Source: Chloroflexota bacterium (GTDB lineage Bacteria; Chloroflexota; Dehalococcoidia; Lucifugimonadales; Lucifugimonadaceae). From it: a stretch of DNA of 64,000 nucleotides. The notes under the pieces were generated by a model, which was not told where the DNA came from, ran no database searches, and saw nothing but the letters and a program-made list of their open reading frames with translations. The DNA lies in contig JADFLG010000003.1 of NCBI GenBank assembly GCA_022564545.1, positions 1-64,000 on the forward strand, read 5' to 3'. Shown piece by piece: positions 34,927-51,769 of the stretch. Position 1 is the first letter of the stretch, and each line of letters begins with the position of its first letter. The position numbers and the translations under genes are program-made.

Positions 34927-35628
34927 TCAGGACGAAACTTGAGCGGTTTCCTGCAAGTAGACGAGCGTCGCGCGTACTCGCTGGTCGACTGCTCCGCTTT
35001 CGTCTATGTGAAGATCGGCGTAGATGGTTTGAAGCAGGGGTCCGACCAGGTCTTCGTCAATTAGCAGTTCGGCTGCGATCGCCGAATCTGCGTATCCGGA
35101 AGCTATGAACATCAACGCTTCCAACTGATTGTGCGTCAGTCGTTCGAGAAGCGATATCTGACGTGGGAACAGGTCGTTCATCACTGCCGGGTCCATCGTG
35201 ACCTGGCCGGCGGCTGCCGATTCGATAGCCCGTACCAGGGAATGGATATCGGCCACGCTCTGCTTTAGCAGGAATGACCAGCCGATCGTTCCTTCGTCAA
35301 GGAACCCTGCAAGGAACTCCTTGTCGCGGTGCGCAGAGAGTATGACGATGCCGGTTTCGGGGGAGGCATTCTTAATTTCGGCGGCAATTACGATGCCGTT
35401 CGGGCCGTCGCCGAGTTCAATATCCATCAGGACCACATCGGGAGTCGTAACTTTGACCAGTTCGATGGCCTCTGTTCCTGACGCAACAGCGCCTACTACA
35501 TTGATCAAGGGTTCCTTGTGGAGTGCAGCGACCAGGATTTCTCGGAAGAGAGACTCGTTGTCGCATACCAGAACGTTGATCGGGGACACCGAAGAACCAT
35601 CAGTGAAATCGAACTGTTCCAGGTCCAT
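34927..35628 (-). CDS. Response regulator, NarL-like receiver with degenerate C-terminal HTH (listed ORF starts 35700)
   Basis: INVLVCDNESLFREILVAAL, DVVLMDIELGDGPNGI; LTHNQLEALMFIASGYADSAIAAELLIDEDLVGPLLQTIYADLHI resembles LuxR HTH without the canonical TV..H motif. Confidence 0.8.
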   Translation of the reverse strand: MDLEQFDFTDGSSVSPINVLVCDNESLFREILVAALHKEPLINVVGAVASGTEAIELVKVTTPDVVLMDIELGDGPNGIVIAAEIKNASPETGIVILSAHRDKEFLAGFLDEGTIGWSFLLKQSVADIHSLVRAIESAAAGQVTMDPAVMNDLFPRQISLLERLTHNQLEALMFIASGYADSAIAAELLIDEDLVGPLLQTIYADLHIDESGAVDQRVRATLVYLQETAQVSS

Positions 35629-35796
35629 ATGAATTTGATTCCTCGCCGTAGGATCTTTTTTTTGGCCTGCTGTTGAATTCAACGTTAGTGTGGTCCGCAT
35701 GCTGGCGTGGTTACGTCGGGGTCACTCCTGTGAGCCACGGGGCTCGAACGTATTACGCTGTCGGCCGGGCATGAACAACTGGGTAAAACCCGCAAT

Positions 35797-35880: not shown

Positions 35881-36561
35881 CTAGATCAGACCGCGACGCT
35901 GAGCTTCGGACACAGCGTGGGCGCGGTTGCTTACGCCCATCGCATCGAAAACATGCCTTAGTTCGCGTTTCACTGTCGCAGGACTCAGGAACAGGTTTTC
36001 AGCAATCGCCTTGGTAGTCTCGCCACCTGCGACCATCCGCAACACCTTCGCCTGTCGCTCGGTCAGGCTCTGGCTATCGGAGGTTTGATTCTGAATCTGA
36101 CGGTATCGGTCTACAAGCAAAGCATTCAGCGCCGGCGAGAGCGGAGAACCACCGCTAGCAGCGTCTCTTACTGCTCGTACCAGCTCTTCCTGCGAGGCCC
36201 GCTTCAGCAGGTAACCAACGGCACCAGCTTCGAGGGCCAGGCCGAGATGGGTGTCGCCGAACGAACTGAGCATCACAACGCGAATGTGCGGATACTTCTC
36301 CATCACGCCGCGGGTGGTTTCGATACCGTCAATTCCTGGCAACATGACATCGCACATAACCACGTCTGCAAGACCCAGTGCGGGGTCGTTGATAGCGTCC
36401 TCGCCGGTGCTGGACTCGCCGATAATCGTTGCCTGACCATCCAGTTCTAACAGGCGCCTGGTGCCCTCACGAACGACCTGGTGGTCTTCAATCAGGAAGA
36501 CTTTGACGGGTAGTGGAGGCTCTTGAGGTGACTCTACTATTGAATAGTCGCGCTGGTACAT
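35881..36561 (-). CDS. NarL/FixJ-family response regulator
   Basis: VFLIEDHQVVREGTRRLL, CDVMLPGIDGIETTRGVM, GAVGYLLKRASQEELVRAV, LTERQAKVLRMVAGGETTKAIAENLFLSPATVKRELRHVFDAMGV. Confidence 0.92.
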   Translation of the reverse strand: MYQRDYSIVESPQEPPLPVKVFLIEDHQVVREGTRRLLELDGQATIIGESSTGEDAINDPALGLADVVMCDVMLPGIDGIETTRGVMEKYPHIRVVMLSSFGDTHLGLALEAGAVGYLLKRASQEELVRAVRDAASGGSPLSPALNALLVDRYRQIQNQTSDSQSLTERQAKVLRMVAGGETTKAIAENLFLSPATVKRELRHVFDAMGVSNRAHAVSEAQRRGLI

Positions 36562-36625: not shown

Positions 36626-38278
36626 CTAACTGGCTTTTCTTGCCGTTTTCATCTGGGTCAGTCCCGCATGCAGGTTCGGTCTTCCCGACATATCAGTTTC
36701 GGTCAGGCGTTGCTCTTTGAGGACCGCGAACCTGTCCATGCTTTGCCTGAGTTCTTCTAGGCTGAAGGGTTTGTGGAGAACTTCCACGCGTGTCTGCTCC
36801 AAGAACGAGCGCGTATCAGGCGAAACAGTGTCACCGGTGATAAACAACACCCTGCCCGCCAGGTCGGGCCTCAGCACCTCAAGGCTGCGGAATACTTCTG
36901 AGCCTCCCAGACCCGGCATTCGGACGTCGAGGAGGATAGCGTCGTATTCGTTGAGGAACAGTGTCCGGAGCGCTTCGGCGCCATCGTTGACGACATCGAC
37001 ATCGTGGCCCTGCGCGGTCAGTGCGCGATTGAGCAGCGTTGTGACTGAGCGTTCGTCGTCGACTGCAAGGACCCTCAGCCTGGTGTAGCTGTTGGGCAAT
37101 GCCGGTACGGTTGGCGATAGAATTTTCGTCTCTTCCGGGACGTCGACAATTGGGATTTCCACGACGAACGTGGTTCCGCGGCCAAGTGCGCTCTCAACCC
37201 GAATAGCGCCGCCGTGGTCTTCAACGATGCCTTTGCAGATCGAAAGACCCAGGCCGGTCCCTTTGCCGACCGGTTTCGTCGTGAAGAACGGATCAAAGAC
37301 CTTCCTCTGATTGGCCTCCGAAATGCCGGGACCATCGTCGGTGATGCTTACCCTGATCATGCCCTGGTCGTGAACGACGCCAACTGTGATCGTCCCATGA
37401 CCGGCTTTTTCACCAATTGCGTGGATGCTGTTTCCGATCAAGTTCATGAAAACTTGTTCCATCCGGTGAGAATCGGCCAGTGTCAGCGGTGTTTCAGCGT
37501 CGAAGTAGGTCACGACTTCGATGTTGTTCACCCGGCATTCGTAGTCACGCAGATCGAGGATCTTTTGCAGCGACTCGTTGATGTTCAAGATTTGCGAGGC
37601 AGCGCCGGAGTCGGACGCTCGTGCGAAGGTAAGCAGGTTGTCGACAATCCGGCCGGCGCGCTCGGCTTCATCGGCGATCGATTCAAGGTCTCGTTTGAGC
37701 GTATCGTCGGTTGCCTGGCGCAATGCCAGCTGCGAGAAGCCGAGTACCGCTGTCAGCGGGTTGTTCAGTTCATGTGCAACGCCGGCCGCCATCTCGCCGA
37801 CAGAGACAAGGCGGCTGTTTGCGATCATTCGGTCCTCGCGGTCGGCCCCTTCCGTGACGTCGTCGATAAGCAGCAGGAACCTGGTCTTCAGTTCGATATC
37901 CAAATGGGGTGTCACGGTAACGTTGTAGTTGGCCTCGGGGTCGTTCGGATTTTCAGCCGGGACCACAAGTTCGCGTGTTTCGACTGGCTTCCCGGTAATC
38001 GACGTCTGCTTGAAGAGGTTCCTGAGGCCCGGCGGGTCGAAATGGTCGGATAGACGGTCACCAACGTTGCTCTTGCCGCACATGCGGTCGAAAACGGAAT
38101 TGGTCAAGATGATGCGTCGCCGTCCATCGAGCGCCGCCATTGCCTGTGGGATTGACGTGATGAGAGCCCGGACGAGGTCTTTCTGGCCCGCCGATTTAGA
38201 GCGCGACTTGAAGACAGAAATATTCCTGCTCTGTGGTTTTGGGCCCTTGCGCCCGGTAGCGCCCGGCACAGCCGCCAT
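36626..38278 (-). CDS. Hybrid sensor histidine kinase (PAS-HisKA-HATPase_c-REC)
   Basis: VGEMAAGVAHELNNPLTAVLGFSQLALR, QVFMNLIGNSIHAIGEKAG, ITDDGPGISEANQRKVFDPFFTTKPVGKGTGLGLSICKGIVEDHGG, C-terminal REC DAILLDVRMPGLGGSEVFRSL; TAATG overlap with the upstream small gene. Confidence 0.93.
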   Translation of the reverse strand: MAAVPGATGRKGPKPQSRNISVFKSRSKSAGQKDLVRALITSIPQAMAALDGRRRIILTNSVFDRMCGKSNVGDRLSDHFDPPGLRNLFKQTSITGKPVETRELVVPAENPNDPEANYNVTVTPHLDIELKTRFLLLIDDVTEGADREDRMIANSRLVSVGEMAAGVAHELNNPLTAVLGFSQLALRQATDDTLKRDLESIADEAERAGRIVDNLLTFARASDSGAASQILNINESLQKILDLRDYECRVNNIEVVTYFDAETPLTLADSHRMEQVFMNLIGNSIHAIGEKAGHGTITVGVVHDQGMIRVSITDDGPGISEANQRKVFDPFFTTKPVGKGTGLGLSICKGIVEDHGGAIRVESALGRGTTFVVEIPIVDVPEETKILSPTVPALPNSYTRLRVLAVDDERSVTTLLNRALTAQGHDVDVVNDGAEALRTLFLNEYDAILLDVRMPGLGGSEVFRSLEVLRPDLAGRVLFITGDTVSPDTRSFLEQTRVEVLHKPFSLEELRQSMDRFAVLKEQRLTETDMSGRPNLHAGLTQMKTARKAS

Positions 38279-40114: not shown

Positions 40115-42058
40115 CTAAAACACTCCGTCTTTGATGGCTTTGGCGATTGTGCGGTAGACCTCCTGGTAACCCTCAAGGCCCGATGCGGCCAGCTTTTCCA
40201 GGATCCTGGCACGGCGCTTTACGAGCGAGTAGATCTGGCGTCGTCGCGCAGGTGGGTATCCACGGGCCGGCGCGATGATCTGTTCGAGGAGATAACTGTT
40301 GTTAAAGCCGGTAAATTCGAATGTGTCGGTAACCGGGTCCCACTGAAACACTTCGACGAATGAGAACGCATCGGCCGCCGAATCGTAGTTCACGATTTCG
40401 TTTATCGAGATGGCCCGCCTGCCCACGGATCCGTCTGGCAGCCGGACGGCAACCTGCATCACCGCGATGTTCAGGTTGTCGATGTAGTTCTTGGGCACCA
40501 GGATCGGGTCACCGACGAGACGCTGGATAAGCTTCTGGACTGAAGACGCGTGGAAGGTGGCCATGACCGGGTGACCGGTCTGCATGGCCTGGAATGCGAT
40601 AAGGCCTTCTTCACCGCGGATCTCACCAATGATGATGAATTCGGGGCGTTGCCGCAGTGCGGCCCGCAGAAGGTCGAACATTCCGACGCCCGAATCGGTC
40701 TCGCCGGATTTCGGCTTTCGGGTCACTTCCTTGATCCAGTTCTGGTGCGGTACGTTCACCTCGGCCGTGTCTTCAATGGACACGATCTTGGCGTTCGGTG
40801 GGATGAACGTGCAGAGCGCGTTCATAAGCGTCGTTTTGCCCGACGCAGTTTCACCGGACACGAACATGTTCATGCCGTCTTCGATCATGATCGAGAGATA
40901 TGCAGCCATCTCCCAATTCAGGGATCTCCACTTGCAGAGCTGGATGATGCTGATCGGGTCTTCTGAGAACTTACGAATTGTGTAGTTCGTGCCCCGCAGC
41001 GAAACGTCCTGGCCGTAGACGATGTTGATACGTGAGCCATCGGGAAGCGAAGCGTCGACTACTGGCTGCCGGAATGTAACCGGCTTCTTGATGCGTTCCG
41101 ACAACCTCAGGACGTGTTCGTCGAGTTCGGCGTGTGTCTTATACCCGAACGAGGCCTTCATCGACAAGAAAATCTTGTGCTCGATGAATATCTGACCGAC
41201 GCCACTGCACGAAATATCTTCGATGTGGTGATCGTTGATCATCGGCTGCAGCACGCCCAGGCCGACTTTTTCACGGACCATCGAATACTTGATTCCTTCA
41301 AGGTCGTCTTCGTTCAGGCCGTACTTTCCGGCTATGTCAAGCGTGCTCTTCGACCCGCCGCCGAAGAGTTTCACGAGCGGGGCTAGCAGGCTCGACTTTT
41401 TCTTTGGCCTGGCAACTGCCGTTTCGGTTTTCTCAGCTACAGCGACTGCAGTTGAATTAGATTCGCCCCCTGCGTCTGTTCCGGCCGAATCTTCCGCACC
41501 TTCTGGGAGAGCAGGCGGTTCGTCTTCGGCCTTTTTAATCTCTTCACCGAGAAAGCCCTTCGGTAATGCGAGGATCTCATCGATCTCCATCTCGACGGGT
41601 TGTTTGAAGATTTGAGCAAGCACCCAGCGCAAAATTCCGGCGAGCTGCTGATCTCCTTCGGCGGCTTCAAGTTCGTCGGTGTATTCGATCAGGCCTTCTT
41701 CAATGTCGGCCATGATCTGAGGGAACTTCGGGTGCTCTGCCGATGGTTCGATCGCTATGTACCAGTCGCGAATGCCCTCGGGGTCGGCGAAAACGTGGAT
41801 GAACGTTCCACCTGCATGCGCCTTGTAAATGATGTTCGGACTATCCTCGTCGCCATCGCTTTTTTCGAGTTCCTCGTGGTACGTGGGGATGCCGATTTCT
41901 GCGATCGGCAGGCTATGCAGGTAACGGAGCAGGAATGAGTTTTCGAGTGCGGCTTCCCTGAGCGCGGTCGGGAGTTGCTGGACGAGCTCGCAACTTTCGC
42001 TATCGCACTCGTGATCGCGGGTATCGATCACATTGAACGGGAGTTCGAATACTGCCAC
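40115..42058 (-). CDS. arlI: Archaellum assembly/rotation ATPase ArlI (FlaI), type II/IV secretion ATPase superfamily
   Basis: FVSGETASGKTTLMNALCTFIPPNAKIVSIEDTAEVNVPHQNWIKEVTR, FIIIGEIRGEEGLIAFQAMQTGHPVMATFHASSVQKLIQRLVGDPILVPKNYIDNLNIAV. Confidence 0.92.
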   Translation of the reverse strand: MAVFELPFNVIDTRDHECDSESCELVQQLPTALREAALENSFLLRYLHSLPIAEIGIPTYHEELEKSDGDEDSPNIIYKAHAGGTFIHVFADPEGIRDWYIAIEPSAEHPKFPQIMADIEEGLIEYTDELEAAEGDQQLAGILRWVLAQIFKQPVEMEIDEILALPKGFLGEEIKKAEDEPPALPEGAEDSAGTDAGGESNSTAVAVAEKTETAVARPKKKSSLLAPLVKLFGGGSKSTLDIAGKYGLNEDDLEGIKYSMVREKVGLGVLQPMINDHHIEDISCSGVGQIFIEHKIFLSMKASFGYKTHAELDEHVLRLSERIKKPVTFRQPVVDASLPDGSRINIVYGQDVSLRGTNYTIRKFSEDPISIIQLCKWRSLNWEMAAYLSIMIEDGMNMFVSGETASGKTTLMNALCTFIPPNAKIVSIEDTAEVNVPHQNWIKEVTRKPKSGETDSGVGMFDLLRAALRQRPEFIIIGEIRGEEGLIAFQAMQTGHPVMATFHASSVQKLIQRLVGDPILVPKNYIDNLNIAVMQVAVRLPDGSVGRRAISINEIVNYDSAADAFSFVEVFQWDPVTDTFEFTGFNNSYLLEQIIAPARGYPPARRRQIYSLVKRRARILEKLAASGLEGYQEVYRTIAKAIKDGVF

Positions 42059-42066
42059 TTAGAAAC

Positions 42067-42774
42067 CTATGCCGATGCCTTGGAGATCGGGATAATTTTC
42101 ATGCCGAGGTCCGGCTCGATATCGAACGTGACGATATTTCCTGTGGTCTTCGTAGCGCCGCGGATTTTCGCCACCTCGAGAATTTTCACGAGCTGGTCGC
42201 CAACTTCCTCCGTGCGGAGGGTCAGGTGGGCGTCACACATTGAACGGAGCCGCGCCAGCGTTGTGTCGTCGAAGGCGTAGGTAGACGCCACGTTGATGAT
42301 GGTGCGTGCCTCGCCGACCAGCACCTGGCACGCTTCGAAGTAGGCGGCGGTGTCTTCCCATGAGCCACGTGTGACGAACGTCGTGAGCGAATCGACAACG
42401 ATCAGGTCTACGCGGGGGCCGTGGGCGATATTTCGGAGTATGGTGTCGAAGACCTGTTTCGGCGTGAGCTTGTTCTTACCGACAGATATGGGGTAGATCT
42501 TGAGCCGGCCCAGCAGTAGAAATTGCATCACCTCGAGGTTCAGGCTGCTCATCTGCCGCAGGAGGCTCTTGGTGGTGTTCTCAGTGGTAAACAGGGTTAC
42601 CGTCAGGCCGGCCTGGAGCGAACCCCACATGAGTTGCTGGGAAACCACGGATTTTCCGGAGTCGGACTGTCCTTCGAGCAGCGTGAGAGACCCGAGTGGA
42701 ATTCCTCCACCCATCTTTTTGTCCAGTTCGGGTTGACCCGTGGATACGCTTACTAGACCTTCTGTGCCTGCCAT
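42067..42774 (-). CDS. arlH: Archaellum regulator ATPase-fold protein ArlH (FlaH), KaiC/RecA-like
   Basis: LGSLTLLEGQSDSGKSVVSQQLMWGSLQAGLTVTLFTTENTTKSLLRQMSSLNLEVMQFLLLGRLKIYPIS; DLIVVDSLTTFVTRG. Confidence 0.9.
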   Translation of the reverse strand: MAGTEGLVSVSTGQPELDKKMGGGIPLGSLTLLEGQSDSGKSVVSQQLMWGSLQAGLTVTLFTTENTTKSLLRQMSSLNLEVMQFLLLGRLKIYPISVGKNKLTPKQVFDTILRNIAHGPRVDLIVVDSLTTFVTRGSWEDTAAYFEACQVLVGEARTIINVASTYAFDDTTLARLRSMCDAHLTLRTEEVGDQLVKILEVAKIRGATKTTGNIVTFDIEPDLGMKIIPISKASA

Positions 42775-42826
42775 GATTGGTTTGCGTCTTACCCGGTGGG
42801 GCTGTCACACCTCACCGATTAGTGGG

Positions 42827-43357
42827 TTAATTGGTGAAAATCGCGGTGACCGTCACACCCTGCTCTACGGCCAGTGTCACCGTGTTTGACGAGCTGGTGG
42901 CCGCTGCGGGCCCCAGTTCGGCTCTGATAATGAATTCTTCACCGGGATTCACGATTCCGGGTTGGTATACCTCCGGGTCCAGGGTAGCGGCATCCTCATA
43001 AATTCCGGTGAGTGTCCACTCCCCCGCAGAAGGAGTCGCAGAGGTCGTGTATGTGAGCCATTCGATTTGCAGGCCACTTCCCGATGCTCCTTCGTACCAG
43101 ACAATGAGGTCCCAGTCGCTAATCTGGCGCAGTTGCGACTGCCCACTGTTTGCGACTGTGAAATCGAGCCTGGAGTTCGATATCACCGAGGTCCCCAACG
43201 ACGAGACACTCGTGCGAGATATCTCGCCAGTCTTATCACGCACGGCCTTTACGCTGACGGTGATCTTGTCCTGCGAGTTGACAGAGCTGGTCGCATAACC
43301 GGCCATGGCAGCCAGGATGATCATTACGGCGAAAAGGGCCACTATAAGACTGGCCAT
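42827..43357 (-). CDS. ArlF/ArlG-like archaellum stator/pilin-like protein, copy 1
   Basis: N-terminal hydrophobic helix MASLIVALFAVMIILAAMAGYATSSV then beta-rich domain (LDFTVANSGQSQLRQISDWDLIVWYE); between arlH and a paralogous gene. Confidence 0.75.
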   Translation of the reverse strand: MASLIVALFAVMIILAAMAGYATSSVNSQDKITVSVKAVRDKTGEISRTSVSSLGTSVISNSRLDFTVANSGQSQLRQISDWDLIVWYEGASGSGLQIEWLTYTTSATPSAGEWTLTGIYEDAATLDPEVYQPGIVNPGEEFIIRAELGPAAATSSSNTVTLAVEQGVTVTAIFTN

Positions 43358-43407
43358 GATTCACCCCCATCCCGGTGATAAGAGCGTTTGATTAGCGTGT
43401 GCATAAA

Positions 43408-43941
43408 TCAGCCATCGAAAAAGATGGTTCCGGTCAGGCCAGTTGGCGTGGTGACGGTAACTTCGCCGGTCGTCGAAGCCTCGACACGTGGGTTGAGACG
43501 GACCCTCATCAGCATCTCTTCCAGGGGGTTGAGCCTGCCTGGTTCGATCAACTCAGCCACAGAGTTGTCGTAATCGATCCAGAACGAGGCGTCGGTCCAC
43601 GTGTTGTCCGATTCGGTCGCCGAATACGAAAGGTGGATAACGGTTTCGCCAGGTGCGCCGCGTTGTTCGTACCGTACCGTCACATCCCAATCTTCGAACG
43701 ACCCCAGGCTCCGGCGCCCATCGTTGGTGATCACGATGTCTACCCGGGTGGAGCCTGCATTGGTATACGCAGTTGTCGATACCAGGCCGATGGACGTTTC
43801 CAGCTCGGCCACCAGTCGTTCATTGCTAACCGCAAGAGACAACGTCCTGTCGCTGCCTGAATCCAGGACGGTATTGACCGCGGTCATCGTTGAACCGATA
43901 ACCAGGAACAGGGCGATTAGTGAAGTTAAAGCTGTGCCCAT
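43408..43941 (-). CDS. ArlF/ArlG-like archaellum stator/pilin-like protein, copy 2
   Basis: MGTALTSLIALFLVIGSTMTAVNTVLDSGSDR plus VDIVITNDGRRSLGSFEDWDVTVRYE; shares N.G...L....DWD..V.YE and P..NP.EE...R..L with copy 1. Confidence 0.75.
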   Translation of the reverse strand: MGTALTSLIALFLVIGSTMTAVNTVLDSGSDRTLSLAVSNERLVAELETSIGLVSTTAYTNAGSTRVDIVITNDGRRSLGSFEDWDVTVRYEQRGAPGETVIHLSYSATESDNTWTDASFWIDYDNSVAELIEPGRLNPLEEMLMRVRLNPRVEASTTGEVTVTTPTGLTGTIFFDG

Positions 43942-44000
43942 GGCGTATTTTTGGGAAACCGGGTTTTACGAAGCTGGCACCGTGTAGCCGGCTTTGCCGG

Positions 44001-44627
44001 CTACATCGAGAAGTAGCTCTCCGCAGCGACTCCGTTCGGTGTAATTACCCGTATGAAGTAGGTACCGGTCGGTTTGGTGCATGCGCCGGGGCAGCCATCG
44101 TCGAACTTGATGTCGAATTTGACCGTCGTGGCGATGCCCCATTCCGTCGCGCCACCCTCAAGCGTGTACGACCACTGGGGGTAGCCGCCGCCAGCATCGT
44201 CTTCGTGCGGGATCCGCTCGATGCCACCCGGCTGACCGAAGAAGATGTCGACCTCGGCGATGGCGGGAATTCGGATGTTGCCTACGTTTTTGCTCCACAC
44301 GTAGAAGTCGAACAACGAGTTGGAGTTTGTATCGACCCAGCTGCTTGCGGAGTCGAGTTCTCCGACTGATTGGACGACGGTAATATTCGTTCTTATTCGC
44401 TCGTCGACCGTGCCAGAGGCAGAAGCGACTGCACTGGAACTGCGAGTTACAGCCGGGTAAACGGCGTTCATCACGGCGACCGCGGCTATGATGCCGGCGA
44501 TCGTGAGCAGCATGGTCGTAATTGCTTTATCGATGGCGGTCTCTCCTGGGGCTGGACGTGTGTGGCAATTGCCCTGGTTTCCCTGGCTGTTGCCAGGCGC
44601 GGAATCCCCGGCCAACTTGCACTTCAT
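44001..44627 (-). CDS. Archaellin-superfamily (ArlF/G-like) protein; start uncertain, conserved region begins at DKAITTMLLTIAGII
   Basis: DKAITTMLLTIAGIIAAVAVMNAVYPAVTRSSSAVASASGTVDERIRTNITVVQ then beta domain FDFYVWSKNVGNIRIPAIAEVDIFFG. Confidence 0.72.
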   Translation of the reverse strand: MKCKLAGDSAPGNSQGNQGNCHTRPAPGETAIDKAITTMLLTIAGIIAAVAVMNAVYPAVTRSSSAVASASGTVDERIRTNITVVQSVGELDSASSWVDTNSNSLFDFYVWSKNVGNIRIPAIAEVDIFFGQPGGIERIPHEDDAGGGYPQWSYTLEGGATEWGIATTVKFDIKFDDGCPGACTKPTGTYFIRVITPNGVAAESYFSM

Positions 44628-44721
44628 TCAATGATGAAATGCGCCCCGTATATCTACGCGGGAATATGTTGTGGGTTAGGTGGGGACGGCAGAAGTCCGA
44701 GCGTAGAAGCTGGTGCTTTTC

Positions 44722-45702
44722 CTACGCGATCAAGCGGTCGAGTGGATCGTCTTCGACATCCATCAACATGCTCAGGAGTCGGTTGCTGTCGGTGCCGGCG
44801 CTGGTGTCCAGAACGCCTTCCATGCGCACCATCGCCGATACGATTTCGCGCACCGGTACCTGCACGGAAGGATCTTCTTCCGTAAGTGCCATCAGGTGAT
44901 GGAGGACTACCCGGGTCGAAGGTGCAATGCGTCCCGCGGCCTCGAATGCGTCGAGCATTATTTCCGTTCGGTTCGCACCGAGCCGATCGGTGGTGACGGC
45001 GACCCAGCGTACCAGCCCGGCCATCGTGAGGACGTCGAAGTTCGCCGTGACCGGCGCCAGGGCGCTATCAGCAGCCCCATCAGCCCCGTCAACGGCGTCG
45101 GTGCCGTCCTGTGCCTTTCCGGAGCCTTCGAGTTCGGGCTCTTGTCCTGTATTTGCCGGTTCCTCATCCAGCTTGAATTCTTCCTCGATTTCTTCAGGAA
45201 TCTCTTCCTCTTCTTCGAAGTATTCGTCCGGATCGGACACCGCTGACGGCATTCCCCCGCCGCCCCCGCCGTCATCGATGATTTCTTCCTCGACGTAGCC
45301 GCCGTCGGGAATTTCCTCGATGATTTCGTCAACAGGGTCGTCCGCGGCGTCATCAAGGTGTTCTTCGACTGATTCCCCGTCCCCGTCTGCGCTTTCGAGG
45401 TCTTCGTCCCCGTCGCCTTCTCCGTCGTCACCGTCGCCTTCGCTTACAGCCCCGGCGGCCCCGTCGGCCCCGGCAGTTCCTTCGGCCCCGGCAGGGCCAC
45501 TGCTGCCACCGCCCATGAGGTCGTCAAACTCGATCTCGTCCTCGTCTGTCAGGGCATCGTCGACCGCGTTGAACGGGTTGGTCACGTCTAAAATGTGCTC
45601 GCGGATATCGAGCAGCGTTTGCTGGACCTGGTTCTTGATGAGATTAAGCTCGTCCTCGGCGGTCTTCAGACCAGCTTTTATGCGAGCGTCTTCAGCAGCC
45701 AA
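44722..45702 (-). CDS. ArlC/D/E-like archaellum accessory protein with long acidic low-complexity linker (TTG start)
   Basis: N-terminal EDELNLIKNQVQQTLLDIREHILDVTNPF; Asp/Glu/Gly-rich middle; C-terminal LTMAGLVRWVAVTTDRLGANRTEIMLDAFEAAGRIAPSTRVVLHHLM resembles the ArlD/E domain. Confidence 0.75.
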   Translation of the reverse strand: MAAEDARIKAGLKTAEDELNLIKNQVQQTLLDIREHILDVTNPFNAVDDALTDEDEIEFDDLMGGGSSGPAGAEGTAGADGAAGAVSEGDGDDGEGDGDEDLESADGDGESVEEHLDDAADDPVDEIIEEIPDGGYVEEEIIDDGGGGGGMPSAVSDPDEYFEEEEEIPEEIEEEFKLDEEPANTGQEPELEGSGKAQDGTDAVDGADGAADSALAPVTANFDVLTMAGLVRWVAVTTDRLGANRTEIMLDAFEAAGRIAPSTRVVLHHLMALTEEDPSVQVPVREIVSAMVRMEGVLDTSAGTDSNRLLSMLMDVEDDPLDRLIA

Positions 45703-45704
45703 TG

Positions 45705-45836
45705 CTAGAACTCATCCCCTGGTGAGAGAACCCTTGCGCGAATGTCGGCGATCAACGGGAACACCAATTCTTTAAGAAGCCGTATCTCTTCTTCCAGATT
45801 TTTCAGACGCTGTTCCAGGTCCATTTCTTCGGCCAT
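45705..45836 (-). CDS. 43-aa coiled-coil mini-protein resembling the ArlC/D/E N-terminus (not in the supplied ORF track)
   Basis: Manual translation MAEEMDLEQRLKNLEEEIRLLKELVFPLIADIRARVLSPGDEF*; ends 2 nt before the next gene's TTG start. Confidence 0.65.
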   Translation of the reverse strand: MAEEMDLEQRLKNLEEEIRLLKELVFPLIADIRARVLSPGDEF

Positions 45837-45979
45837 GGTGCTTGCGTCTCCCGGGTATCCTGTATCTATGTTTCGTAAACGGTGTTGATTTAGGTTCAGC
45901 TAAAAGCGAATGTTTCGCCAATTCAGTCCTGGTTGCCGGTAGCTGACCAGGAGCACCGAATTGTTACGAGGCTGAGTCT

Positions 45980-46696
45980 TTACTTGAGGTCCATGACCGT
46001 GTCGAGCCTGGGTGGTGAGGTGCGTTGGATTGTCAGCACTGCGCCGCTCTCTGGTTTGACTTCGAGGGTGAACTGGTCGTTTGTACCAATGAGTGTGCCG
46101 GAATCCTGCAGGATTCCTGATGCGCCGTTGACGTCTACAGCGGCATACTCGCCAACACTATCGTCGGATCCTATTGCAGTACCTGTATTGCGTTCGAGCA
46201 ACCAGACGGTGATTTCCGCCTTTTCGCCCTCTTCCAGCAAGCTGTCACCGTTGTCGTTACCTACCCAGTCAAGTGTCCACGGGACATCTGGCAAATGCTG
46301 GTTCTTGTCTGTGAACGAGATGACTGTCCTGTACTCGGCGTTAGATACGATGTCCGGGTCAGTACCGTCCTCGCCTTCAGTGTAAGGCGCTGTCAGGTCG
46401 ACAGGCTCACCTGCAATGGCGTTAGATACGAAGAACGACACTTTGTAAAGTGTCTCTGTGGAACCAACCTTGCCCTTGTAGGCTATGACTGACCCTCGTG
46501 GTTCGATGGAACTCTTGGCTTCTTCGAGGCCTGCGAACACCGTCTCTTTGGACCGCTCGGAGGCGAATATGCCTGTCGAGAGGACCGTGAAAGCGAATAC
46601 GGACGCCACGACCACGAATGCAATGAGAATGATTGCGGTCTCGAGACCGGTGATTCCCTTTTCGTGCATTGGCGCACCGAACTTGTGCGTAAACAT
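45980..46696 (-). CDS. arlB: Archaellin 5 (operon-proximal)
   Basis: HEKGITGLETAIILIAFVVVASVFAFTVLSTGIFASERSKETVFAGLEEAKSSIEPRGSVIA...VKPESGAVLTIQRTSPPRLDTVMDLK; SD AGGAGA. Confidence 0.9.
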   Translation of the reverse strand: MFTHKFGAPMHEKGITGLETAIILIAFVVVASVFAFTVLSTGIFASERSKETVFAGLEEAKSSIEPRGSVIAYKGKVGSTETLYKVSFFVSNAIAGEPVDLTAPYTEGEDGTDPDIVSNAEYRTVISFTDKNQHLPDVPWTLDWVGNDNGDSLLEEGEKAEITVWLLERNTGTAIGSDDSVGEYAAVDVNGASGILQDSGTLIGTNDQFTLEVKPESGAVLTIQRTSPPRLDTVMDLK

Positions 46697-46842
46697 TTAC
46701 GTGTCTCCTGGTTTCCGCCTCCAAGGGGCGTGGCCTGAATGGTCTTCCTCATTTGCTGTCCCGGTGGCGACATACGACCGTATTGCCCACCGGGTAATTT
46801 CGGCCACACGTTCAATGTATTTGGAAACCGGATGGTCAAACA

Positions 46843-46857
46843 TTGGGGGCACCCCAA
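46843..46857. promoter_or_regulatory. Dyad element upstream of archaellin 5
   Basis: TTGGGGGCACCCCAA perfect inverted repeat, 147 nt upstream of ATG. Confidence 0.6.
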
Positions 46858-46893
46858 CGCCGGGGGTGGGCAAACCCACACAGAACACGCACG

Positions 46894-46927
46894 AAAACAG
46901 CCACCTGGCTTCCCAGGTGGCTGTTTT
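46894..46927. terminator. Intrinsic terminator of archaellin 4
   Basis: AAAACAGCCACCTGGCTTCCCAGGTGGCTGTTTT. Confidence 0.85.
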
Positions 46928-46953
46928 GGCAGTGCTTTTATGTTCGACCGAAC

Positions 46954-47676
46954 CTACTTGAGGTCCATGATCGTGTCGAGCCTCGGCGGAGCAAACCGCT
47001 GAATCGTCAGCACCGCGCCGCTTTCCGGCTTCATCTCGATGGTGAACTGGTCGTTCGTCGTGATTGCCGTATCGGTCGAAAGCATTCCCCGGGCGCCGTT
47101 AGTGTCGGCAGACGGGTAGTACTTTGCGCCACCTGTGGCTGTCGGGTCGGAGGCCTGGGTCAAGAAGTCACGTGTGAGCAGCCATACTGTGATCTCGGCC
47201 TTCTCGCCTACTTCCAGGAGGTTGTCAGAGTTGTTGTTTCCAATCCATGAAACCGTCCATGGGACGTCAGACAGGAACTGGTTTTTGTCGATGTACGAGA
47301 TAACTGTCCTGTACTCGGCGTTCGCGACGATGTCCGGGTCGGTGTTCGAGTCGTCCGTATCGTACGGAGGAGTCAGGTCGACCGGCTCACCGGCAATGGC
47401 GTTAGAGACGACAAAGGACAGCTTGTAGATGGTCTGGTTAGTGCCATCGTGCCCTTTATATGCGATAACCGAACCGCGGGGTTCGATCGAGCTCTTCGCT
47501 TCTTCCAGACCCGCGTAAACCGTCTCTTTGGACCGCTCGGAGGCGAATATGCCCGTCGAGAGGACCGTGAAAGCGAACACGGACGCCACGACCACGAATG
47601 CAATGAGAATGATCGCGGTCTCAAGACCGGTGATTCCCTTTTCGTGGCCTGGCGCACCGAACTTGTGCGTAATCAT
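46954..47676 (-). CDS. arlB: Archaellin 4
   Basis: HEKGITGLETAIILIAFVVVASVFAFTVLSTGIFASERSKETVYAGLEEAKSS...EMKPESGAVLTIQRFAPPRLDTIMDLK. Confidence 0.9.
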   Translation of the reverse strand: MITHKFGAPGHEKGITGLETAIILIAFVVVASVFAFTVLSTGIFASERSKETVYAGLEEAKSSIEPRGSVIAYKGHDGTNQTIYKLSFVVSNAIAGEPVDLTPPYDTDDSNTDPDIVANAEYRTVISYIDKNQFLSDVPWTVSWIGNNNSDNLLEVGEKAEITVWLLTRDFLTQASDPTATGGAKYYPSADTNGARGMLSTDTAITTNDQFTIEMKPESGAVLTIQRFAPPRLDTIMDLK

Positions 47677-47825
47677 TAACGTGTCTCCTAATTTCCGCCT
47701 TCACAGGGCGGGGCCAGGTCGATCTTCTTCATTACTGCCACCATGCGCGTAACTCTGGCCTTGCGCTTCCCGATGGTCGTTGCAGCTCTGTACTCAAAGC
47801 TATGCCCGCATATTTCCAGAAGGTA

Positions 47826-47840
47826 TTGGGGTCACTCCAA
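47826..47840. promoter_or_regulatory. Dyad element upstream of archaellin 4
   Basis: TTGGGGTCACTCCAA, 150 nt upstream of ATG. Confidence 0.6.
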
Positions 47841-47876
47841 CTCCGTGGGTCGGATAGCCCACACACGGGGATAAGC

Positions 47877-47908
47877 AAAACGGCCACCGTAACGCCGGTG
47901 GCCGTTTT
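47877..47908. terminator. Intrinsic terminator of archaellin 3
   Basis: AAAACGGCCACCGTAACGCCGGTGGCCGTTTT. Confidence 0.85.
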
Positions 47909-47931
47909 GCTGGTTGTGTCGAGACCTGGAT

Positions 47932-48654
47932 TTACTTGAGGTCCATGATCGTGTCGAGCCTCGGCGGCGCAAACCGCTGAATCGTCAGCACTGCGCCACT
48001 TTCCGGCTTCATCTGGACCGTGAACTGATCGTTGGTGGTCAGGAACGTATCGGTCGACAGCAGGCCCCGTGCGCCATTGGCGTCGGCACCGGTGTAGTAA
48101 TCAACGCCGTTGCTGGCCGTTGCTATGAAGGTGTTGTCGCGCCTGAGGAGCCAGACCGAGATCTCGGCCTTCTCGCCCACTTCCAGGAGGTTGTCGGAGT
48201 TGTTGTTGCCAACCCAGGAAACGGTCCACGGGACATCCGCGAGATACTGGTTCTTGTCGATGTACGAGATTACCGTCCTGTACTCAGCGCCAGAGACGAT
48301 GTTGGGATCGGTGCCCGTGTCGCTTGCCGTATAGGGCGGGGTCAGGTCGACCGGTTCACCGGCAATGGCGTTGGAAACTACAAACGACAGCTTGTAGATG
48401 GTGTCGGTGGCAGACGTTGTGTCGATCCGGCCTTTGTAGGCGATAACCGAACCGCGGGGTTCGATCGAGCTCTTGGCCTCCTCGAGCCCGGCGTAAACCG
48501 TCTCTTTGGACCGCTCGGAGGCGAATATGCCTGTCGAGAGTACCGTGAAAGCGAACACGGACGCCACGACCACGAATGCAATGAGAATGATCGCGGTCTC
48601 AAGACCGGTGATTCCCTTTTCGTGGCTTGGCGCACCGAACTTGTGTGCAAGCAT
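47932..48654 (-). CDS. arlB: Archaellin 3
   Basis: same N-terminal class III signal peptide and C-terminus; VQMKPESGAVLTIQRFAPPRLDTIMDLK. Confidence 0.9.
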   Translation of the reverse strand: MLAHKFGAPSHEKGITGLETAIILIAFVVVASVFAFTVLSTGIFASERSKETVYAGLEEAKSSIEPRGSVIAYKGRIDTTSATDTIYKLSFVVSNAIAGEPVDLTPPYTASDTGTDPNIVSGAEYRTVISYIDKNQYLADVPWTVSWVGNNNSDNLLEVGEKAEISVWLLRRDNTFIATASNGVDYYTGADANGARGLLSTDTFLTTNDQFTVQMKPESGAVLTIQRFAPPRLDTIMDLK

Positions 48655-48806
48655 TATGCGTGTCTCCTACGGTCCCCATTCAAAGGACGGGGCCAGACTG
48701 ATCATCCTCAACACTGCTGCTGTAAGCACGGTCCTGGCATTGAACTTCGCCACGGTCGTTGCAGTTATGTATCTGTCAAGTTATGTCGAACAGGTTTCCC
48801 CTGATA

Positions 48807-48821
48807 TTGGGGACACTCCCA
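48807..48821. promoter_or_regulatory. Dyad element upstream of archaellin 3
   Basis: TTGGGGACACTCCCA, 153 nt upstream of ATG. Confidence 0.55.
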
Positions 48822-48858
48822 CATCGTGGGCCGGACAACCCACACGCGGGTTAATGAG

Positions 48859-48887
48859 AAACAGCCACCGTGGTCCCGGTGGCTGTT
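48859..48887. terminator. Intrinsic terminator of archaellin 2
   Basis: AAACAGCCACCGTGGTCCCGGTGGCTGTT. Confidence 0.8.
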
Positions 48888-48912
48888 GCATTGGCTGTAT
48901 CGATTCCTGGAT

Positions 48913-49644
48913 TTACTTGAGGTCCATGATCGTGTCGAGCCTCGGCGGAGCAAACCGCTGAATCGTCAGCACCGCGCCGCTTTCCGGTTTCATCTCGAGG
49001 GTGAACTGGTCGTTCGTGCCGATAATTGTGTCGGTAGACAGCAGGCCACGGGCGCCGTTTACATCGGCGGCAGCATAGTATTCGACACCGTTGTTGGCGG
49101 TCGGGTCAGTGGCCTGTGCTACGAAGTCGCGCCTGAGGAGCCAGACCGTGATCTCTGCCTTCTCACCCACTTCCAGAAGGTTGTCGGAGTTGTTGTTGCC
49201 AACCCAGGAAACGGTCCACGGCACATCAGAAAAGAACTGGTTCTTGTCGATGTACGAGATAACTGTCCTGTACTCGGCGTTCGCGACGATGTCCGGGTCA
49301 GATCCCGCGTCGTTAGTTGTGTATGGAGGTGTCAGGTCGACCGGTTCACCGGCAATGGCGTTGGAAACTACAAACGACAGCTTGTAGATGGTGTCGGTTG
49401 CCGTCGATGTATCAACCCGGCCTTTGTAGGCGATAACCGAACCGCGTGGTTCGATCGAGCTCTTCGCTTCTTCCAGCCCTGCGTACACCGTTTCCTTTGA
49501 TCGCTCTGAAGCGAAAATACCGGTGGACAGAACGGTAAATGCGAATACGGACGCCACCACCACGAAGGCGATGAGGATAATGGCGGTCTCAAGACCGGTA
49601 ATGCCCTTTTGTGACTCTGCCTTCGCACTCTTTTTGAACAACAT
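48913..49644 (-). CDS. arlB: Archaellin 2 (listed ORF starts 49788; likely start MLFKKSAKAESQKG)
   Basis: SQKGITGLETAIILIAFVVVASVFAFTVLSTGIFASERSKETVYAGLEEAKSS...EMKPESGAVLTIQRFAPPRLDTIMDLK. Confidence 0.9.
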   Translation of the reverse strand: MLFKKSAKAESQKGITGLETAIILIAFVVVASVFAFTVLSTGIFASERSKETVYAGLEEAKSSIEPRGSVIAYKGRVDTSTATDTIYKLSFVVSNAIAGEPVDLTPPYTTNDAGSDPDIVANAEYRTVISYIDKNQFFSDVPWTVSWVGNNNSDNLLEVGEKAEITVWLLRRDFVAQATDPTANNGVEYYAAADVNGARGLLSTDTIIGTNDQFTLEMKPESGAVLTIQRFAPPRLDTIMDLK

Positions 49645-49823
49645 CACTAAGATCTCCCTTTTCTCGGACCTGGTCTCCTGAAGTCCCCCACTGCGTAAAT
49701 GGCTGCATTGCCTCGGCGCGGTGGGTGACATTTCTCCTGCTTCCAAAGTTAGGGGTGGACAGGGTTCTGGTCGGTCGGGTCGGCACACAAACTGCGGTGT
49801 GCTGACACCAATGCGGTTAACGA

Positions 49824-49855
49824 AGCACGACCAGCGGAATTCCGCTGGTCGTGCT
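49824..49855. terminator. Intrinsic terminator of archaellin 1
   Basis: AGCACGACCAGCGGAATTCCGCTGGTCGTGCT. Confidence 0.75.
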
Positions 49856-49878
49856 TGCGATTGCTGAGCAACACCGGG

Positions 49879-50604
49879 CTATTTCAGGTCCATGATGGTG
49901 TCGAGCCGGGGGGGTGCAATCCGCTGAATAGTCAGTACTGCACCGCTGCTCGGTTTTACCTGGAGCGTGAACTGGTCGTTTGCATTGAGGAGCGATCCCG
50001 CCGTTAAAATGCCGCTGGCCCCGTTGACGTCGGCGGTTGTATATTTCGCAACGCCATTATTGTCGGTCGCATTGGTCACGGCGTTGTCGCGCCGTAGCAG
50101 CCACACAGTTACCTCAGCCTTCTCTCCCTGTTCAAGCAGGCTGTCAGAGGAGGACTGCCCCAGAATCTTTACAGTCCACGGAACATCCGACAGGTACTGA
50201 TTCCTGTCCTGGAAAGAGATGATCGTTTTGTACTCGGCGCCACTCGAGATATCTGGATCTGATCCCGAGTCGTCAAATGTGTAGGGCGGCGTCAGGTCGA
50301 CCGGCTCACCGGCAATTGCGTTGCTCAGTACGAACGAAATCTTGTAAATGGAATCTTCGGCCGCACTGGTCCCCGCGCGTCCTGTGAACGCAATCACGCT
50401 TCCGTGAGGTTCGAGAGAGCTCTTGGCTTCCTCCAGACCCGCGTAAACCGTTTCCTTGGACCGTTCGGATGCGAACACGCCGGTCGAAAGGACCGTAAAC
50501 GCGAAGATCGAAGCTACAACGACGAACGCGATCAGGATGATCGCGGTTTCCAGTCCGGTGATTCCGCGCTGCTGGTAGTCAATGCCCAGCTTTCTGTTGC
50601 TCAT
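49879..50604 (-). CDS. arlB: Archaellin 1 (array-distal; listed ORF starts 50679; likely start MSNRKLGIDYQQRG)
   Basis: QQRGITGLETAIILIAFVVVASIFAFTVLSTGVFASERSKETVYAGLEEAKSSLEPHGSVIAF...LQVKPSSGAVLTIQRIAPPRLDTIMDLK. Confidence 0.9.
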   Translation of the reverse strand: MSNRKLGIDYQQRGITGLETAIILIAFVVVASIFAFTVLSTGVFASERSKETVYAGLEEAKSSLEPHGSVIAFTGRAGTSAAEDSIYKISFVLSNAIAGEPVDLTPPYTFDDSGSDPDISSGAEYKTIISFQDRNQYLSDVPWTVKILGQSSSDSLLEQGEKAEVTVWLLRRDNAVTNATDNNGVAKYTTADVNGASGILTAGSLLNANDQFTLQVKPSSGAVLTIQRIAPPRLDTIMDLK

Positions 50605-50753
50605 CTCTGGGATGCTCCTCGAAGTGTTGGCAAGTTCAGGTCCTGTCGCGCCCTGTGCGCAGTTAAGGGGTTTGTGCACGAGAGCGCGCTGGACGTGAAC
50701 GTCCGGTTTCCTGCGTTATTGCGAACTTTACTTAGAGAATCTCGGAACCGGCA

Positions 50754-50768
50754 TTGGGAGCACACCAA
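50754..50768. promoter_or_regulatory. Dyad element upstream of archaellin 1
   Basis: TTGGGAGCACACCAA, 150 nt upstream of ATG. Confidence 0.55.
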
Positions 50769-51040
50769 TACTCGCGGCGGGTCTGCCCACATGAACCGCG
50801 GGGTGCGGTGCACGACGTTGACATGGGAACGCACTCAGGTACTGCCACTCAGGTTGACGCGTGGACGGCGCTAACGACATATAAGCAATTGACGGAGAGC
50901 ATCAGGGGATAGGTTTGGTGGACAACGGCCAGCAATTCCCGGCATCAGCATTGCGTTTTTGACCAGTTCCACTCGGTAACGGGGGCAAGTGTTCAGGTCT
51001 CTACTATTCAGCAGCCTGAGCGCAAACAGGGGAAATTTGA

Positions 51041-51769
51041 ATGCAAACGATATCTATTATCATCGCGGACGATCACGAATTGACTCGTGAAAGCCTGGCC
51101 GTTCTTCTGGACCGGGAACCTGGAATCGAAGTGGTTGGCGTCGCTGCCGACGGGCGAAGCGCAATTTCGATGGCCAAGTCTCTGCAACCGACAGTCGCCA
51201 TTCTTGATGTCAACCTTCCGTTGATCAACGGCATCCAGGTCGCTCGCCAAATACGTGTGGACAGCCCGCATACCGGCCTTGTCATGTTGTCTAACCACGA
51301 CCGTGGTGAGTACTTGAAGGAGTTCATGCGCGACGATTCGGCGGGCAAGGCTTTCTTGCTCAAAGCAACACTGCGCAACACCCGTGACATCGTTCGCGCA
51401 ATCGAGGATGTGACTGCGGGTCGAACCGTACTCGACCCTGTAATGGTGTCGAAACTAACTTCCGACGATGGACTCAGGCTTAGCGGCGCGCTGAAGAACC
51501 TCAGCCCGCGAGAACTCCAGGTCCTGGGCCTGATGGCAAGGGCACACTCGAACCGGGCGATCGCCGAGGCGCTGTTCATTCAGCCCCGGACAGTTGAGCA
51601 CCACATCAGCAGCGTGCTGGCAAAACTCGGGTTCAATTCGAACGGCGAGAAACATGGCCGTGTGTTCGCCATCCTCACTTACCTGGAATCTACCGGCCAA
51701 CTGCCGGTGCACGAGTCCGAGCTTGAACATGGAACGGACTTTGTTTCGCCGATTCAGATGACTGCATAG
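51041..51769 (+). CDS. NarL/LuxR-family response regulator divergent from the archaellin array
   Basis: SIIIADDHELTRESLAVLLDREPGIEVVGVAADG; LSPRELQVLGLMARAHSNRAIAEALFIQPRTVEHHISSVLAKLGF. Confidence 0.92.
   Translation: MQTISIIIADDHELTRESLAVLLDREPGIEVVGVAADGRSAISMAKSLQPTVAILDVNLPLINGIQVARQIRVDSPHTGLVMLSNHDRGEYLKEFMRDDSAGKAFLLKATLRNTRDIVRAIEDVTAGRTVLDPVMVSKLTSDDGLRLSGALKNLSPRELQVLGLMARAHSNRAIAEALFIQPRTVEHHISSVLAKLGFNSNGEKHGRVFAILTYLESTGQLPVHESELEHGTDFVSPIQMTA

Follow-up and report, generated by a model that had tools for sequence, protein, structure and literature searches.

The bacterial archaellum, an archaeal motility machine whose operation in bacteria has been recognised only recently, is encoded in Litorilinea aerophila and 'Candidatus Lucifugimonas marina' by clusters that contain the same genes, with the archaellins arranged in tandem (PMC12488501, PMC10444878). 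A term search did not find the word 'promoter' in either paper, no archaellum regulator was found described there, and our search of the literature brought up neither a promoter nor a regulator described for a bacterial archaellum. Here we consider a two-box, promoter-like element that precedes the tandem archaellin genes in a 64,000-nt stretch of DNA (contig JADFLG010000003.1, positions 1 to 64,000; hereafter, the window), which is part of a 2.9-Mb Chloroflexota metagenome-assembled genome (MAG; GCA_022564545.1, our G000, contig C17). The closest named relatives of this genome are SAR202-type Dehalococcoidia, including 'Ca. Lucifugimonas marina' JH1073 (CP046147). In archaea, the Arn network of Sulfolobus likewise regulates the expression of archaellins; however, archaeal promoters depend on TATA/BRE and on other regulators, whereas the promoter and the candidate regulator discussed below appear to be of bacterial type.

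The arrangement of the element resembles that of the DevR/DosR promoters of Mycobacterium tuberculosis, which contain at least two close-packed sites that are bound cooperatively, the proximal one overlapping the -35 position (PMC3029386). Here, too, the sites are paired, the proximal one is predicted to lie over the -35 position, and the candidate regulator, a NarL/LuxR-type response regulator (51041-51769, +; hereafter, 51041), belongs to the same NarL subfamily. In comparison with solved structures, the closest matches of 51041 include VraR (E 1e-25), DevR (3c3w, E 1e-24) and NarL (E 5e-21). VraR and NarL share its domain architecture, but they are only distantly similar to it in sequence and have other targets, signals and operator sequences. 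The DevR regulon comprises about 50 dormancy genes (PMC4601167), whereas the present element is found at one archaellin cluster only, its box TTGGaGTGnnCnCAAT differs, and there is no hint of a hypoxia signal. Both the type of promoter and the family of the regulator are known; what is new is their target, the bacterial archaellum.

On the archaellin strand (-), the element consists of box A (TGTGGG-N4-CC-N2-CC), box B (TTGGaGTGnnCnCAAT), a near-random stretch of 20-22 bp, and a -10-like TAnnnT, with box B 22 bp on from the GTGGG of box A, and with TAnnnT exactly 38 nt past the start of box B. In copy 1, upstream of archaellin 1 (45980-46696; PF01917, E 5e-22), box A (TGTGGGTTTGCCCACCC, 46864-46880) is the predicted distal activator site, at about -72 to -56, box B (TTGGGGTGCCCCCAAT, 46842-46857) is the predicted proximal site, at about -50 to -35, and the -10-like TACATT occupies 46814-46819, so that the predicted start is near 46807. 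Copy 2, at archaellin 2 (46954-47676), comprises box A TGTGGGCTATCCGACCC (47847-47863), box B TTGGAGTGACCCCAAT (47825-47840) and TAGCTT (47797-47802); copy 3, at archaellin 3 (47932-48654), box A TGTGGGTTGTCCGGCCC (48828-48844), box B TGGGAGTGTCCCCAAT (48806-48821) and TAACTT (48778-48783); and copy 5, at archaellin 5 (49879-50604; PF01917, E 7e-22), box A TGTGGGCAGACCCGCCG (50775-50791), box B TTGGTGTGCTCCCAAT (50753-50768) and TAAAGT (50725-50730). Copy 4 is a variant, with box A TTGGTGTCAGCACACC (49796-49811), which is conserved in four orthologues, box B TTTGTGTGCCGACCCGACC (49773-49791), and TAACTT (49746-49751) 40 nt after this box B; copy 4 and its orthologues have TTGGTGnCAgCACaCC and then TTTGTGTGCCGACCCGACC, with TA at +40 in four of five. 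This diverged variant of the promoter, which includes CGACC repeats, has been kept by archaellin 4 (48913-49644) and its orthologues (loci L021-L023 and L025) in each of the five genomes, so that archaellin 4 may be expressed differently from the other copies.

The dyads that the first-pass annotation of this DNA had placed at 46843, 47826, 48807 and 50754 are all there; their lower edges are 147, 150, 153 and 150 nt, respectively, from the first base of the ATG at 46696, 47676, 48654 and 50604, in full agreement with the 147-153 nt it gave. Its diverged dyad at 49796 is present as well, 152 nt from the start at 49644, but its counterpart in the other copies is box A rather than box B. The second dyad that it assigned to copies 3-5 exists, as box A, but is located at 46864, 47847 and 48828 (copies 1-3) and, in part, at 50775 (copy 5). 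The annotation stopped short of the most informative part of the element, the TAnnnT whose distance from box B is always 38 nt.

With no more than one mismatch, the strict motif TTGGNGTGNYCCCAAT has four matches in the window where 0.02 would be expected, and each of them is at an archaellin, which rules out a chance motif. When three mismatches are allowed, there is no enrichment in the window (8 matches against 9.8 expected), so that the strictness of the match matters. Among the window copies, identity is 0.29 in the spacer and 0.70-0.80 in the boxes; duplication without function was rejected because the spacers have reached background divergence, yet their length and the boxes are kept. 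Operators of NarL/LuxR-type response regulators are imperfect inverted repeats, frequently arranged in tandem, and the two boxes agree with this pattern. The symmetry axes of boxes A and B are 22-23 bp apart, and each is the best of its region, at only about 2 standard deviations over the mean; since a direct-repeat comparison of the two boxes yielded merely a broad peak, at 21-25 bp, their similarity to each other is only suggestive.

The element is conserved in related genomes. The upstream regions of 24 archaellins from six genomes (the window and its relatives at loci L021-L025, with the L. marina JH1073 genome, locus L023, among the carriers of the element) align over 73 columns without a gap, and the TA and T of TAnnnT, 38 nt past box B, are invariant in all 24. 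Box A carries 19.3 bits of information, box B 25.9 and the -10 11.9, as compared to 3.5 in the spacer; a spacer of fixed length and near-random sequence is a signature of protein-DNA geometry. The spacing was also assessed in 41 archaellin upstream regions outside the motif definition, where the -10 played no part in choosing the best box B: TAnnnT was found at exactly +38 in 13 of these and at +37 to +39 in 19, other offsets averaging about 0.2. By contrast, none of 19 archaellins from genomes that lack 51041 has TAnnnT at exactly +38 (Fisher p 0.005). Only the exact 38-nt spacing is informative, given that, within a wider window of 36-41 nt, TAnnnT occurs in 5 of these 19 controls.

A profile of the element has 4 matches in its own genome and 20 in the five relatives, all of them in the archaellin cluster (E <= 1.1e-7), with the next best match at 0.27. 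The sequences used for training match by construction; the informative part of this result is that the six genomes contain no other matches, so that the profile reveals no further regulon members in them. A one-mismatch site in contig C132 was considered as a regulon member and rejected, being located within a coding frame. Over 197 genomes of the order, the profile has six weak matches beyond the cluster itself. One of these, in G187 (E 0.006), lies between an orthologue of 51041 and a gene of the archaellin family (PF01917, E 3e-8) that diverges from it, and TA again falls at +38; the same arrangement is found in G137. In these two genomes (loci L120, 4959-5654, and L121), the archaellin-family gene GITGTETAIVIAAGA beside the 51041 orthologue has its own box B and -10, and the ordinary archaellins sit on other contigs. 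The statement that the element precedes every archaellin holds for the tandem cluster but not for the five dispersed archaellins of the same genome (contigs C110, C15, C86, C75 and C88; loci L115-L119), none of which has it. The six dispersed archaellins of L. marina are likewise without the element, and the dispersed genes are probably under separate control.

If the start is placed 12 nt past the T of TAnnnT, transcription is predicted to begin at 46807, 47790, 48771 and 50718, the space between the genes allows for a 5' leader of about 110-117 nt, and box B is centered at about -43, over the -35 region, with box A at about -65. No sigma-70 -35/-10 pair was found in the region (2.4 expected), and there is no -35 hexamer. 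This layout, as judged from the sequence, suggests an activator-dependent class II promoter of bacterial type, and we assign a probability of about 0.68 to this reading together with 51041 as the likeliest activator. Each of the tandem archaellin genes would then be a transcription unit of its own, with a bacterial promoter that has TAnnnT for a -10, lacks a -35 and needs an activator, and boxes B and A would be tandem sites for dimers of one activator, box A being 22 bp, that is, two helical turns, upstream and on the same face of the DNA. Because box B covers the position where a -35 would be expected, we propose that the bound activator would recruit RNA polymerase in the class II manner. 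The activator is most likely 51041, encoded divergently next to the cluster, beyond archaellin 5, which, when phosphorylated, would turn on all the archaellin promoters jointly. The element is missing from the machinery genes further downstream, and archaellin 1 is followed by only a modest hairpin, so these genes are probably expressed via read-through from copy 1.

Several lines of evidence point to 51041. It has a receiver (PF00072, E 3e-19) and a GerE domain (PF00196, E 2.5e-14), and in its 19 orthologues the phospho-acceptor Asp, the Ser/Thr and the Lys are conserved in the motifs DD, (I/M)(L/M)D, S and LLK, a single orthologue (L047) having DG instead of DD. The recognition helix QPRTVEHHI is invariant in all 19, at an overall identity that goes down to 46%. 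In each of the 13 testable genomes, from four families (f1, f30, f6 and f36), the orthologue is divergent beside an archaellin-family gene; among the ArlI-positive genomes, the carriers of 51041 are the nine with the order's closest ArlI. In the distant families, a TTGGGTAnCnAC-like (TTGGGTA-type) box is kept 39-40 nt before TAnnnT. At one such locus (L122, 5717-5770), GGGTGTAATTACCAACACGCTT is present in two near-identical copies upstream of the archaellin, perhaps as further regulator sites. One genome of the same genus, G165, lacks both ArlI and the element, and a transposase insertion there has removed the receiver of the 51041 orthologue; eight more genomes of this genus without ArlI also lack 51041. 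At the G165 locus (L153, contig C18, 4076-4925), a transposase (HTH_Tnp_1, then HTH_21/rve) replaces the receiver part, and the far-side flanking genes are kept. The proposal of the first-pass annotation that the dyads form an operator for a dedicated regulator, possibly 51041, is therefore well supported, at the level of sequence, by the class II-like geometry, the fixed spacing to the -10 across unrelated spacers, the exclusivity, the synteny and the co-loss, and 51041 is the best candidate for the activator of the archaellin promoters.

Several observations weigh against this reading. The 24 aligned sequences are not independent, because the six genomes are related and the paralogues are of common descent. 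Some genomes that have both archaellins and 51041 fall below significance with the group-I profile, and in several MAGs the contigs are fragmented. Box B is the more regular of the two boxes, the dyad of box A being shifted in register in copy 1, and the element of copy 4 is diverged. Finally, the sequences of the boxes drift from family to family, so that what ties them to one regulator is synteny and the shared TTGG half-site.

The promoter architecture would be the same if the boxes were bound by a different activator, an alternative that we consider unlikely. The binder could be unlinked to the cluster or could be the second NarL-type regulator that the first-pass annotation had named along with 51041, 35881 (35881-36561, -), which is paired with the hybrid histidine kinase 36626. 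Its receiver and GerE domain are intact, the kinase gene (36626-38278) is adjacent, and orthologues are found in the archaellum clusters of close relatives. However, there is no orthologue of 35881 at E <= 1e-40 in G169, a genome with the element and 51041, nor in G137, G125, G065 and G036, and G115 and G041 have just homologues of about 41% identity on other contigs; some of these absences could be accounted for by MAG incompleteness. Of the two flanking regulators, 51041 is thus well linked to the element and 35881 less well.

It seems improbable that the boxes are operators of a repressor that blocks the polymerase at a constitutive promoter. The -35 region, which box B overlaps, is a place of repressor binding as well, but a constitutive promoter would have a -35 hexamer, which is missing here, and two sites in phase, at about -43 and -65, together with a fixed spacing to the -10, make up the usual layout of an activator. 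Somewhat less credible still is a dedicated alternative sigma factor that would recognise boxes A and B as an unusual upstream core element, with no separate activator. The spacing, fixed throughout, and the exclusivity of the element to archaellin genes would suit such a factor; against it, two imperfect dyads 22 bp apart are more in keeping with dimeric activators, TAnnnT is conserved at exactly those positions that are typical of the sigma-70 -10, and the genes inspected (31.9-54 kb) include no sigma gene next to the cluster.

The sequences just upstream of box A are relevant to the structured 5' leader that the first-pass annotation had offered as an alternative to an operator. In copies 1-4, strong hairpins (-22 to -34 kcal/mol) with T-rich stretches end 7-13 nt before box A. 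The hairpin of copy 1 (46894-46927, -; -33.9 kcal/mol, z -6.1) is followed by TTTT and is the putative terminator of the preceding archaellin gene; the corresponding putative terminators, also on the - strand, are at 47874-47911 (-32.1 kcal/mol), 48860-48887 (-22.5 kcal/mol) and 49823-49856 (a perfect 17-bp stem, -31.9 kcal/mol), so that a promoter upstream of the boxes would fall inside a terminator. That the dyads are RNA hairpins of the archaellin mRNA is very unlikely: single copies can fold (z -1.9 for copy 1 and -2.0 for copy 2), but the terminators leave no room for an upstream promoter in copies 1-4, the pairing of the boxes in the 24 sequences is at the level of shuffles (72.3% against 71.6%) with no excess covariation, 22 of the 24 have a broken inner pair 30-36 in box B, and no Rfam family scores above its threshold.

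The archaellum cluster, on the - strand, comprises the genes at 40115-46696 and, upstream of them, four archaellin copies. The gene order starts with the five archaellins (PF01917), after which come open frames that are small and acidic, archaellin-like genes, and two ATPases, the first of the ArlH type and the second of the ArlI type. At the far end of the cluster, the hybrid kinase 36626 and the regulator 35881 are accompanied by a receiver protein (34927-35700, -) without a recognisable helix-turn-helix domain. The latter protein is 35% identical to 51041, its C-terminal part no longer matches the LuxR-type helix-turn-helix, and it is possibly a decoy or a phosphate sink within the archaellum cluster.

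Taken together, the element and its candidate regulator allow exact predictions of where transcription starts, where the activator binds and which genes are co-regulated in a cultured organism with an available genome, and they indicate that bacterial-type promoters drive this borrowed archaeal machine. No archaella have been seen in cultured SAR202 cells despite the presence of the genes (PMC10444878), which an activator-dependent switch, if true, would explain. In a broader perspective, we slightly favour a scenario in which 51041 acts as the master switch for the archaellum of SAR202, a horizontally acquired archaeal organelle that would have been rewired to bacterial control via one captured two-component regulator, with the tandem site copied at each duplication of an archaellin, and with the regulator and the site co-evolving and being lost together across several families.

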